Source: a virus. From it: a stretch of 35,171 nucleotides of DNA. The first letter of the stretch is position 1. Each line of letters begins with the position of its first letter. Location: IMG/VR virus record IMGVR_UViG_3300023118_000021, positions 1-35,171 of that record, one strand, 5' to 3'. Below the pieces are notes generated by a model that was not told the DNA's origin, searched no databases, and worked only from the letters and a program-made list of their open reading frames with translations. The position numbers and the translations under genes are program-made. Shown here piece by piece: positions 25,674-35,171 of this stretch.

Positions 25674-25906
25674 CCCGCCACAAGCCGACCGACACCGACC
25701 GGCTCGTCTGGTCGCTAGTCTTCGGCGCCCCGCTGACCCCCGCCCAGCGCGAGGCGTACGCTCACCGTCGGGCCGCGATGCGTCTTCGCATCGTCGGTGC
25801 CGCCGCGGCGCTCGTCACGGCGGGCATCCTCTGGGTTCTCATCGTCTGGGGGCTCATCGTCCTCGGCGCCGCCATCTTCGACGGCACGACCGTCGTACCC
25901 CGCTAG
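25670..25906 (+). CDS. Small membrane protein
   Basis: A 78-aa protein with a charged N-terminal ~40 residues and one long hydrophobic segment, 'AAALVTAGILWVLIVWGLIV', long enough for one or two membrane passes, then a short polar end. Early expression under an operator promoter suggests an envelope function such as exclusion rather than lysis. Inference only. Confidence 0.65.
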   Translation: MTRHKPTDTDRLVWSLVFGAPLTPAQREAYAHRRAAMRLRIVGAAAALVTAGILWVLIVWGLIVLGAAIFDGTTVVPR

Positions 25907-25952
25907 TACAGTCAGCACCCCGCACCACTAACCCCCGAAGGGACACTGCATC

Positions 25953-27950
25953 ATGGGAAAGAAAGACGCCGCACTCCACGGCCTGAGTAAGAAAGAGCGC
26001 AAGGCGCTCGAAGAGAAAGAGGCCGCCATCGCCGCCGAGCTGGACGCCCGTGCGGCGAAGCCTGTCAAGCCGAAGAAGGGCAAGGGGAAGAACAAGTCCC
26101 CCGACCTGACCACGCTGAAGCGCAAGGCGCTCAAGCAGCTCATCGCCGACAAGACCAACGGCGAGTTGAGGGACCGGGCCAAGGCCGAGCTCAAGCGGCG
26201 CGACGCCGAGGGCGACGCATCCGAGGCCCGCTCACTCGCGATCATGCGAGAACACGAAGACGCGAAGGCAGCCAAGGCCATCGCCAAGAAAGAGGCGGCC
26301 GTCAAGGTCAAGCCCGCGAAGAAGGGCAGGTCGACCGAGGCCGACAAGGCCGCGGACATCGTCACCGATGCGGCCGAGGTCAAGGGCGAAACCCACTCCC
26401 CCGCCGCGATCATCGAGGCGGCCGACAAGGTGCTCGCCGACCCGAACGCCAGCGAGGGCGCGCTCAAGTCCGCGCGCACCGCACGGAATAAGGCGCTCGC
26501 GTCGATGACCGACGACGAGCTCAAGGCCCGCGTGCAGAGCAAGAACGCCAACCGCGCCGAGCTCGAGGCCACCGCCAATAGCGTCGACCGTGACGACGAG
26601 AGTGCCGTCGCCGCATACAACGCCGCGCTCGCGGCCATCGGTGGCGGCAAGTTCCTCACGAGCAATGCCGAGAAAGCGGCCCGCGATGCGGAGATTCGCG
26701 GGGGCACCGACCATGCCGCAATCGCGGATGCGAACATGGACGCGAACCCGACTTACGCCAAGCCGAAGAAGGACAAGGCTGCCAAGGTGGCTGAGGCCGT
26801 CGTCGCCGACATGCTGGCGGTCGAGGCCCCTGCCCAGGCGGTCGAGGAAGTCGAGACCGAGACCGGCCGCATCTTCGCTGCCGGCGAGTCGGTCGACGAG
26901 GCCACGGGCGAAATCATTGAGGCCCGGGTCGACCCCGCCGACGAGCGCGGTTTCGCGCTACCGAGCGAGGGCGGCCGCCCCGACTTCGAGCAGAACGGGA
27001 ACGGGCAGTACAAGATTAAGCGGCTGAGCGACGGCAAGATCGTCGGCTACACCCGCGCCACCACGTTCATTTCGACCAACGAGGACCGCACGCAACTCGA
27101 GAAGTGGAAGCTGCGCGTACTGCTCGAGGGCATCGCGATCAACGACAGCCCCGACGAGCACGGCCGCATCTCCGACCCGGTCATGGCCAAGGTCTCCGAC
27201 CTCATCCACCGCCGCGACGTGGCCATCGCCAAGGCGCGGAAGGCTGACCGCAAGGGCAAGCTCGTCCCCGGTCAGTTCGGCACTATCACCGAGGCGGCAT
27301 GGTCCGAGTTCAAGAAGGCGCTCAACACCCTCGCCGAAGACCTGCTCGAGCTCGGCGGCGCACACGTCAAGGCCGCCAAGGGTACCGAGCTGCACGAGCT
27401 CACCGAGCTCTACGACCGCGACGGCATCGACGCCGTGGGCGACCTCGTGACCGCGGGGAAGATCACACACGCCGACCTCGCCGACGTCGAGGCGTACGCC
27501 CGTGCCATCGAGGCGGCGGGTATCAAGATCATCCCCGAGTTCATTGAGCAGCCCATCGTTGTCGAAGACCTCAAGGTTGCCGGTCGCCTCGACCGCGTCG
27601 TCATGGTCAGGCTCCCCGGTTCGGCTCGGGCCATCCGGTGCATCTTCGACGTGAAGTCCGGTCGCATCGACCTCGGCGCCGGGAAGATTGCCCAGCAGCT
27701 CAGCATGTACGCCCGCGGCGAGACCTACAATCTCGAGACCCACGAGCGCGGCAAGCACGGGGCCAGCCTCACCAAGGGCCTCGTTCTCCACCTCGTGCCC
27801 GGTTCCGCCGAAGCACACATCTACGTCGTTGACCTCGGAACCGGACGTATCGGTAACGACCTCTCGACCAAGGTGCGCGCCTTCCGCAACGACGGCAAGC
27901 GGGCAATCGACATGACCGTCGACCTCGCGGCGCCGAAGGCGGCCGACTAG
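25953..27950 (+). CDS. RecB/Cas4-like PD-(D/E)XK nuclease with long Lys-rich N-terminus
   Basis: A 665-aa protein. The first ~330 residues are Ala/Lys/Glu-rich, largely helical and probably extended. The C-terminal half carries a RecB/Cas4-type nuclease: His481 in 'KGTELHELTELYD', Asp547 in 'GRLDRVVMV', Asp566 and Lys568 in 'IFDVKSGRID', then 'IAQQLSMYAR'. Such enzymes degrade or process DNA ends during recombination. The long charged N-terminus is far larger than the nuclease needs and may bind DNA or partners. A structured RNA region and a possible ssDNA-binding gene follow, making a recombination module. Confidence 0.82.
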   Translation: MGKKDAALHGLSKKERKALEEKEAAIAAELDARAAKPVKPKKGKGKNKSPDLTTLKRKALKQLIADKTNGELRDRAKAELKRRDAEGDASEARSLAIMREHEDAKAAKAIAKKEAAVKVKPAKKGRSTEADKAADIVTDAAEVKGETHSPAAIIEAADKVLADPNASEGALKSARTARNKALASMTDDELKARVQSKNANRAELEATANSVDRDDESAVAAYNAALAAIGGGKFLTSNAEKAARDAEIRGGTDHAAIADANMDANPTYAKPKKDKAAKVAEAVVADMLAVEAPAQAVEEVETETGRIFAAGESVDEATGEIIEARVDPADERGFALPSEGGRPDFEQNGNGQYKIKRLSDGKIVGYTRATTFISTNEDRTQLEKWKLRVLLEGIAINDSPDEHGRISDPVMAKVSDLIHRRDVAIAKARKADRKGKLVPGQFGTITEAAWSEFKKALNTLAEDLLELGGAHVKAAKGTELHELTELYDRDGIDAVGDLVTAGKITHADLADVEAYARAIEAAGIKIIPEFIEQPIVVEDLKVAGRLDRVVMVRLPGSARAIRCIFDVKSGRIDLGAGKIAQQLSMYARGETYNLETHERGKHGASLTKGLVLHLVPGSAEAHIYVVDLGTGRIGNDLSTKVRAFRNDGKRAIDMTVDLAAPKAAD

Positions 27951-28105
27951 ACCCCTGGTCGGCGTATCCCCCCATGCGTCGACCAGGCCCAGACCGGGCC
28001 GCCGCTGCGCGGTGCTGACCCTTCGGGACAGCGGCGGCCCTCACAACTCGGCAGCACCGAGGGCGATGCAATCGCATCGTCTGACCCACACAGGAAGGCC
28101 AGATA
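27951..28105 (+). ncRNA. Structured intergenic RNA candidate
   Basis: No gene fits these 155 bases, but the plus-strand RNA can form four hairpins: (1) 27954-27967 with 27974-27987, 14 pairs and a C6 loop; (2) perfect 12-bp arms 27996-28007 and 28029-28040; (3) CTCGG/CCGAG at 28047-28061 with loop CAGCA; (4) CGATGC/GCATCG at 28064-28079. Loop CAGCA (28052-28056) is complementary to TGCTG (28013-28017) in the loop of hairpin 2, a possible kissing interaction. An alternative GGCCC/GGGCC pairing (27986-28000) excludes hairpins 1 and 2. There is no U-run. It may be a structured leader of the next gene, a processed RNA or a separate ncRNA. Confidence 0.6.
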
Positions 28106-28627
28106 ATGGCGAAGGACAAGGCAGTGAAGAACAAGGGCAAGTCGAAGACCGACGAGCCGATCAAGAGCAAGAAGTCGAAGGGTGGCAGCGACGACTTCGC
28201 GAAGCCGAGCGACGCACCCGCCGGCGATAGCTGGAAGCTCGAAGATGAAGACAACGTCGGAAAGCTCTTCCTCATCACGCCGCTGCGTGAGCAGGACTTC
28301 AAGAGCGAGGACTACGGCGACTCGCGTGTCGTGGTCTGCGACGTCGTGGAAATCAACGAGAAGAAGGTCGCCAAGTCCGAGACCCATGAAGAGGTATTCG
28401 CGTTCGGCGGCTGGGTCAAGGGCGCGCTGCGCGGCTACATCGGTGAGCGCAAGGTGCTCGCGCGGCTCGGGCAGGATGCGAGCAAAACGAAGTCGAAGCG
28501 AAAGGATGCGTTCGCCTGGGTCCTCGAAGACGCCGACGATGACGACATCGAAATCGCCAAGGAATACCTCGCCACCGTCGACCCGTTCAAGACCGGCGGC
28601 AAGGCCAAGGGCAAGGGCAAGAAGTAA
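28106..28627 (+). CDS. Possible ssDNA-binding (OB-fold-like) protein
   Basis: A 173-aa protein with AGGAAGG before ATG 28106. Lys-rich disordered start (~1-40), then 'EDEDNVGKLFLITPLREQDF' and 'SRVVVCDVVEINEKK', a pattern recurring in actinophage proteins next to nucleases and proposed to be OB-fold-like, then an acidic part and a Lys/Gly tail. Placement behind the RecB/Cas4-like nuclease supports a role in binding ssDNA in replication or recombination. The acidic stretch before the C-terminal tail is also typical of such proteins. Homology is not proven here. Confidence 0.5.
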   Translation: MAKDKAVKNKGKSKTDEPIKSKKSKGGSDDFAKPSDAPAGDSWKLEDEDNVGKLFLITPLREQDFKSEDYGDSRVVVCDVVEINEKKVAKSETHEEVFAFGGWVKGALRGYIGERKVLARLGQDASKTKSKRKDAFAWVLEDADDDDIEIAKEYLATVDPFKTGGKAKGKGKK

Positions 28628-28634
28628 CATCCTC

Positions 28635-28674
28635 GGGCGGGGTGCTGGCAACGGCGCCCCGCCCTTTCCGCTTT
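28635..28674 (+). terminator. Terminator after putative ssDNA-binding gene
   Basis: Arms 28635-28645 and 28654-28664 pair over 11 bp (GGGCGGGGTGC / GCGCCCCGCCC) with an 8-base loop, followed by TTTCCGCTTT. Strong stem with a short interrupted U-tract, so likely partial termination before the next gene. Confidence 0.75.
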
Positions 28675-28696
28675 ACCATCGAAGGGAACTAGAACC

Positions 28697-29410
28697 ATGG
28701 CAAGCATCTACAACGACGACGGGGTCCTCGATTACATGGCCGCCGCCGCCGAGCTCCGCGGACTGCGAGAGCTGGGCAACCCCGCCGCCCAGGCAACGGC
28801 AGCGTCGCGCATCGCCGCGGCCGCGGCGGTCGACGTGGCCGCCTCTCTCAATGCGCTCGTCGGCATCCTGAGCGTCGCCCTCGAGGATGGCCAGCGCGTC
28901 ACCCCTGGCGACGACATCGACGCGGAGGGCGATGAGCAGGTCGACGACGTGACGATCAACGAACCCGACGCCGACGACCCGCTCGACGTCGGCGACTGGG
29001 TACGACCGCTGCCCGTCGCGGACGGAAGCGGCGAGCAAGTTGGACACCCGTCGCTCGTCATCGCGGTCGGGCAGAGCGAGGGCGCCGACTGGCTCACGCT
29101 GCGCCACTACGACGACGACGGCAACGAGTTCGTCAGCGTCGGCGGTGACGGTGCGCGGGTCTGGGCAGATAACTACCGCCGCGCAGAGGAATGGCAGCGC
29201 GTCGGGCCCGTCGGCGTCAGCCTCGCGACCGGGCAAGCTGTCGAGGTTGACGCCGACGAGGTCAACCCGTCGGACTTGATCGACGACATCGACAGCGACT
29301 TCGGCGAGTCGACTGCCGATGACAGCCGTCACGTCTTCACGACGCCCGACGAAGAGCCGACCGCGCCGAAGAAGAGCAAGGGCAAGAGCAAGTCGAAGGG
29401 GGCAAAGTAA
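28697..29410 (+). CDS. Acidic early protein, unknown
   Basis: A 237-aa strongly acidic protein. Ala-rich helical N-terminus (~10-60), an Asp/Glu-rich linker, a central strand-rich domain ('GDWVRPLPVADGSGEQVGHP', 'GADWLTLRHYDDDGNEFVSV'), another acidic stretch and a Lys-rich end 'KKSKGKSKSKGAK'. The acidic surface could mimic DNA and titrate host DNA-binding proteins, but that is speculation. The basic tail resembles that of the preceding gene. No family recognised. Confidence 0.68.
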   Translation: MASIYNDDGVLDYMAAAAELRGLRELGNPAAQATAASRIAAAAAVDVAASLNALVGILSVALEDGQRVTPGDDIDAEGDEQVDDVTINEPDADDPLDVGDWVRPLPVADGSGEQVGHPSLVIAVGQSEGADWLTLRHYDDDGNEFVSVGGDGARVWADNYRRAEEWQRVGPVGVSLATGQAVEVDADEVNPSDLIDDIDSDFGESTADDSRHVFTTPDEEPTAPKKSKGKSKSKGAK

Positions 29411-34594: not shown

Positions 34595-35144
34595 TCAGTA
34601 GAAGGCGGGCGCGGTGTCGATGTCGACGCGCGGCGTGCCAGTGACGGGCCCGAGGGCAATGAATTGAATGGTTCGCACGCCCTTGGCGGGCACCGTCCAC
34701 CATTCGGGGGAGGGAAGGAATCGACCCGCCGGTGCGGTCCCGTTGATAAAGGCGGTCATGCTGGCGGTGTCGAGCACGATGGTCGTACCCGAGGTGACCG
34801 GACCGAGGTAGGTGAGCCGTTCGCCCGTGTCGACATTGACAAGCGCGAAACCGTCAAGCATCTGCCCGCCGCTCACGGTGTAGATGGACACGGTTTCAGT
34901 GTTGCCTGAGTTGGTCACCAGGACGCGACCGTCGACCGGCAGCGCGCCGAAGTCGAGCGGATAGACGAGAGGGAAAGGCAGCCCTCCACCGGGCACGGCG
35001 AGGGTCGTCCCTACGCGAGCCGTGGCGCCGTACCTCTTCGGGTCGGCAGCCTCGGCGTCGAAGGTGTACTTGAATTGCTGGTGAATCGTCCACGGGAACT
35101 TGATCGACTTGACGGCGATCTGGCGACTGGTCGCTCGAAGGTCG
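34595..35144 (-). CDS. Distal tail (Dit-like) protein, C-terminal part
   Basis: Continuation of the gene entering from base 442. In this frame the codons run without a stop through 35144-35010 and end at TGA 34595-34597. The C-terminal ~140 residues contain short beta-strand-like segments ('VLVTNSGNTETVSIYTVSGG') and a conserved-looking 'SPEWWTVPAKGVRTIQF', typical of the C-terminal jelly-roll domain of distal tail proteins. A GTG at 34996 could be mistaken for a start, but the upstream frame is open and matches the other end of the window. Seventeen bases separate it from the next tail gene. Confidence 0.7.
35011..35144. repeat. Direct terminal repeat, right copy
   Basis: Second copy of bases 1-134. 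Identity stops at 35144, where the sequence switches to an inverted copy of upstream bases. It should be collapsed with the left copy when the genome is closed. Confidence 0.93.
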
Positions 35145-35171
35145 CCAGATCGCCGTCAAGTCGATCAAGTT
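35097..35171. repeat. Fold-back inverted repeat at window end
   Basis: Bases 35097-35127 are followed after a 13-base spacer (35128-35140) by their perfect 31-base reverse complement at 35141-35171, where the window ends. The left copy of the terminal repeat shows normal sequence after base 134, so the inverted part is not in the internal version. A template-switch or amplification chimera at a contig end is the simplest explanation; a true hairpin end is less likely because the coding frame continues smoothly in the other copy. Confidence 0.9.

Follow-up and report, generated by a model that had tools for sequence, protein, structure and literature searches.

A kissing-loop leader RNA conserved in Microbacterium phages upstream of a gene for a predicted single-stranded-DNA-binding protein

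The window, that is, the whole stretch of DNA analysed, is a 35-kb viral contig (35,171 nucleotides), in which region 27951-28105 lies between the gene of a 665-aa exonuclease (phrog_466) and that of a 173-aa phrog_870 protein that resembles single-stranded-DNA-binding (SSB) proteins. The original prediction had placed four hairpins in this region, and all of the parts described were found in the sequence, including the first hairpin (H1) with its C6 loop and 14 pairs, of which two are G-U, the perfect 12-bp arms of the second, the complementarity of loop CAGCA (28052-28056) to TGCTG (28013-28017) and the lack of a U-run after the hairpins. The last three hairpins, at 27992-28081 (~90 nt), form a conserved RNA leader. 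The features are as follows.

27954-27987, plus strand: H1, hairpin of 14 pairs and a C6 loop, close behind the exonuclease stop and outside the conserved leader
27996-28007 with 28029-28040, plus strand: P1, 12-bp GC helix with perfect arms, closing a 21-nt loop
28010-28017, plus strand: kissing strand, CGGTGCTG, within the P1 loop, pairing with 28052-28059; conserved core TGCTG at 28013-28017
28018-28020, plus strand: unpaired ACC that immediately follows the kissing strand, identical in 11 of 11 aligned homologues
28047-28061, plus strand: P2, hairpin CTCGG-CAGCA-CCGAG, whose loop is the kissing partner
28062-28081, plus strand: P3, 8-bp hairpin with an AATC loop (RNYC tetraloop class), stem diverged and pairing kept
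28094-28108, plus strand: ribosome-binding site AGGAAGG and ATG (28106) of the SSB-like gene, read from the sequence, outside the conserved helices
28106-28627, plus strand: gene of the 173-aa phrog_870 protein (E = 3.8e-12)

The P1 loop holds both the kissing strand and the invariant ACC, and in the window its match to the P2 loop extends from the TGCTG/CAGCA core to 8 bp (CGGTGCTG, 28010-28017, with CAGCACCG, 28052-28059). The conserved plus-strand order begins with the upstream-gene stop, then P1 and its loop (kissing strand, then ACC); a short G-free linker leads to P2, whose loop is the kissing partner, and to P3, and an A-rich stretch, the ribosome site and ATG complete it. P1 measures 12-13 bp across homologues (12 in the window), and a GAAAGG-type ribosome site is conserved in the relatives. 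Between P3 and ATG, UUAAA/UAAA repeats are absent from all complete homologues, this region being A/C/G-rich. No promoter-like site was found near the window element and no terminator-like site on the plus strand of 25800-28750.

DNA and protein searches gave 11 complete leaders: that of the window, those of five sequenced Microbacterium phages that carry both leader and gene (Isperia, Wyvern, OscarSo, SM23 and FuzzBuster), and those of five viral contigs (L001, L248, L249 (also numbered L103), L252 and L253). Two further copies are incomplete, one lacking the 5′ side (L250) and one reduced (L251). In every copy the gene directly downstream is of phrog_870, and the leader is always flanked by the stop codon of a gene upstream and by the ATG of the phrog_870 gene, while the upstream gene differs; in Isperia, Wyvern and OscarSo the upstream stop falls within a few bases of P1. 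In these three phages and SM23, at least one small gene separates the nuclease from the leader, and therefore the element belongs to the downstream SSB-like gene. The P1-to-ATG distance is near-fixed, and its length varies among homologues without keeping frame, thus the leader is non-coding. In FuzzBuster, gp60 (L006 2726-3433) is annotated from a start within the RNA leader, which makes it 29 residues longer than from the start shared by its relatives (MAKD), located at L006 2813.

Orthologues of the exonuclease-SSB gene pair occur in Nocardia phage NBR1 and Rhodococcus phage ReqiPine5, where phrog_870 follows the exonuclease gene after a gap of just 35-44 nt, and no leader was seen before phrog_870 in phages of either host genus; the leader has therefore been added to the gene pair and does not simply come with it. 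In the Streptomyces phages YDN12 and Mischief19, the gaps before phrog_870 are longer and a promoter-like TTGACA is visible by eye. A search of 366 Microbacterium genomes with the SSB alignment (run with no positive control) returned 0 matches and no sign of a prophage form, and a search of viral contigs with the exonuclease gave no new members. A loose DNA pattern yielded mostly chance matches without the P1 helix in viral and genome contigs, and tighter ones no further members.

Covariation in homologous intergenic regions had been named beforehand as a point on which the original prediction would stand or fall. Because MAFFT misaligned parts of the leader, pairs were counted on helix blocks aligned by hand across the 11 complete homologues, and the window P2 was also set by hand; since a hand alignment leans towards structure, swapped-partner controls were added. 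In these hand-aligned blocks, 98.3% of the cells of 23 pairs are paired and 9 pairs changed on both sides. Compensatory changes are present in P1, P2, the P1-P2 kissing pairing and P3. The covariation score was 0.289, compared with 0.137 in shuffles (0 of 500 as good; relatedness not fully corrected), and sliding the partners by 1-3 columns lowered the paired cells to 30-69%. Six pairs of P1 carry compensatory changes (97.7% of cells paired over the 11 homologues), and P2 (98% of cells paired) shows CG/UA compensation at its outer pair. Two neighbouring pairs have exchanged sides between Isperia and Wyvern, one from G-C to C-G and the other from C-G to G-C.

Three versions of the kissing 5-mers were seen, UGCUG/CAGCA, CGCUG/CAGCG and UGAUG/CAUCA, and the partners are matched within every genome: the 5-bp helix is 100% paired in all 11, with two compensated positions. 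When kissing partners were swapped between genomes, pairing in 11 of 11 arose in just 0.8% of trials, a control in which relatedness is not fully corrected. In FuzzBuster and L252, the flanking part of this helix has likewise changed on both strands together (GGAUGCUG/CAGCAUCC). In SM23, a U-A kissing pair has become C-G; nested as it is within the SM23-FuzzBuster-L252 group (support 89/100; remaining tree poorly resolved), the other members of which keep U-A, this change argues for an independent event. The stem of P3 differs in sequence in nearly every homologue, yet 61 of its 65 inner pairs are formed, versus a mean of 39 and a maximum of 54 when arms were swapped, and 12 of the 13 copies have an RNYC loop. 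Having passed this covariation test, the predicted kissing-loop regulatory leader is supported.

Other parts of the prediction fared differently. H1 has no counterpart at the homologous position in relatives and was rejected as part of the leader. C-rich-loop hairpins follow the SSB gene in four relatives (L006, L103, L120 and L005), and H1 is best read as a 3′-end hairpin of this type without a U-run, following the exonuclease gene. Such GC hairpins with C-rich loops (for example ATCCCCCC) are located at 27954-27987 of the window and at L006 3451-3494, L103 975-1019, L120 4243-4282 and L005 3315-3356; they have at most short T tracts behind them and possibly represent a terminator or 3′-end type of their own. 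The GGCCC/GGGCC pair proposed as an alternative fold is present in the window and absent from relatives, so that it was rejected as a conserved alternative. An 8-bp strand-exchange switch, in which loop 1 would displace the 5′ arm of P2, is feasible in about 7 of the 11 homologues; it is not claimed as a conserved mechanism, because the Isperia group cannot form it.

The predicted fold was also compared with shuffled sequence. The plus strand of 27951-28105 folds at −80.4 kcal/mol, whereas its shuffles average −60.2 (z = −5.3; 0 of 200 dinucleotide shuffles as good), as the prediction anticipated, and the minus strand has z = −1.05. The plus-strand z is below the minus-strand z in all 11 leaders, the difference being small in some; taken alone, L001, FuzzBuster and, most weakly, SM23 and L252 fold just moderately better than shuffles. 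The plus strand also keeps U-G pairs (5 cells in P1 and more in P3). Together, the strand difference and the U-G pairs favour plus-strand RNA as the probable acting form, without being decisive. They bear likewise on a very unlikely explanation, by which the element would act as ssDNA, as a lagging-strand or primosome assembly site beside the SSB gene. The element does sit among replication genes, and pair covariation alone cannot tell RNA from ssDNA; however, the kept U-G pairs would turn into A-C mismatches on the opposite strand, the z values lean, in some leaders slightly, towards the plus strand throughout, and the orientation is fixed at a near-fixed distance from the start codon of one gene.

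The 173-aa protein has no meaningful match in Pfam or NCBIfam, and phrog_870 is annotated as of unknown function. An AlphaFold2 model (pLDDT 64, pTM 0.58) is beta-rich with an OB-like layout. Its top structural match in PDB, the SSB P12 of PRD1, is weak (Z 5.1, rmsd 4.4 over 93 residues), as is the Foldseek match to the same protein (9i86; E 0.19); several SSB/RPA domains and OB-fold ssDNA binders follow, all of them weak matches. Fold relatives among viral proteins are found in Arthrobacter, Corynebacterium and Mycobacterium phages. The product is thus predicted from its modelled fold to be, likely, an ssDNA-binding protein; a sequence relation to T4 gp32 was not detected.

We propose, with a probability of about 0.6, that the element is a cis-acting leader inside a replication operon that acts at the level of translation and controls that of the downstream SSB-like protein. 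Control by a bound protein appears the most likely mode, because the element is fixed before one gene, in mid-operon, with the ribosome site exposed. Sequestration of this site is not clear in the predicted folds, therefore repression would need a ligand. P1 and P2 would lie side by side with their loops kissing in a compact pseudoknotted body, followed by P3 with its RNYC tetraloop and then by the A-rich stretch that bears the ribosome site. A protein may recognize the kissing body and the exposed ACC and RNYC loops and, once bound, would block the downstream ribosome site or spread over it. Among candidate binders the SSB-like product itself would be the first choice, binding once free ssDNA is saturated; by analogy with T4 gp32 (PMC535899) we offer such binding to its own leader as a tentative proposal, below even odds. 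The reduced copy (L251 2310-2413) keeps P1, with a UUGACC loop that retains ACC, and P3, with an AGCC loop, and lacks P2 and the kissing partner. As the gene is kept there, at least one lineage can do without the contact.

The main rival to translational control is a role in mRNA processing or stability, in which host RNases would cut or protect the hairpins, leaving a stable and highly translated 3′ fragment that encodes the SSB. SSBs are required in large quantity, which would suit such a role, as would the high stability of the hairpins stacked in a gap within the operon, with no promoter-like site found nearby. A mere barrier, however, needs no covarying loop-loop contact, invariant ACC or conserved P3 loop, and we regard this role as rather doubtful. 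The compact stable fold and the conserved exposed loops might also suit a small RNA, released by processing, with host or phage messages as its targets in trans. Such an RNA would hardly be expected always directly before one gene, and no promoter or terminator of its own was found; we consider it most improbable, and nothing points to a replication-linked or trans-acting RNA.

Translational control by a protein was further weighed against a metabolite riboswitch, or another small-ligand sensor, controlling the SSB-like gene. In kissing-loop riboswitch aptamers, paired helices are joined by loop-loop pairing, and the kissing-loop body with its invariant unpaired nucleotides resembles that architecture in a general way. 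Unlike those aptamers, the element has no three-way junction or known binding core that could be seen, and neither a terminator nor a helix sequestering the ribosome site was seen. The window has no match in Rfam 15 at the gathering threshold, and at a relaxed threshold the best scores were 12-17 bits against cutoffs of 52-99, riboswitches being unmatched at either. With just 11 complete examples, before one gene and in phages only, a riboswitch is scarcely probable.

Phage SSB genes have one well-known precedent for such control. The gp32 proteins of T4 and RB69 repress their own mRNA via a leader pseudoknot (PMC535899), and according to the same paper it is unknown whether any SSB proteins other than T4 gp32 and M13 gp5 regulate the translation of specific messages through RNA binding. 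The leader described here lies directly before a phage gene predicted to encode an SSB; as in that operator, it places a folded pseudoknot upstream of the ribosome site and keeps its fold while the sequence diverges between phages. In T4, however, a pseudoknot of ~28 nt stands at the mRNA 5′ end and is followed by UUAAA/UAAA repeats (PMC535899), whereas here the leader stands in mid-operon, lacks UUAAA repeats and consists of three GC-rich hairpins, two of them joined by a kissing contact between loops; the pseudoknot expected of a gp32-type operator is present as the compensated kissing pairing, in a topology unlike that of T4. Autoregulatory leaders of ribosomal proteins (for example PMC7247131) are similar in placing a structured leader upstream of a gene for a nucleic-acid-binding protein, and differ in the gene; neither ribosomal mimicry nor an Rfam match was identified here.

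No earlier report of this leader was found in open-licence papers. The RNA family, a structured one without an Rfam 15 match, is new, and its architecture differs from that of the phage precedent. The leader is a covariation-backed candidate for SSB-linked translational control beyond gp32 and gp5, with the exact bases to mutate defined, and it occurs in phages whose hosts are laboratory strains of Microbacterium. In an SSB family for which no sequence relation to T4 gp32 was detected, the leader could possibly be an independently evolved autogenous kissing-loop operator with a conserved RNYC tetraloop, a reading to which we give less than even chances; if true, free SSB feeding back on its own translation would be a recurrent solution in phage replication.

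Two further inverted repeats were seen in the window. A GC hairpin at 28635-28664, immediately downstream of the SSB-like gene and with TTTCC behind it, is likely a terminator. The contig ends in a perfect inverted repeat of 31 nt (35097-35171), possibly an assembly snap-back.
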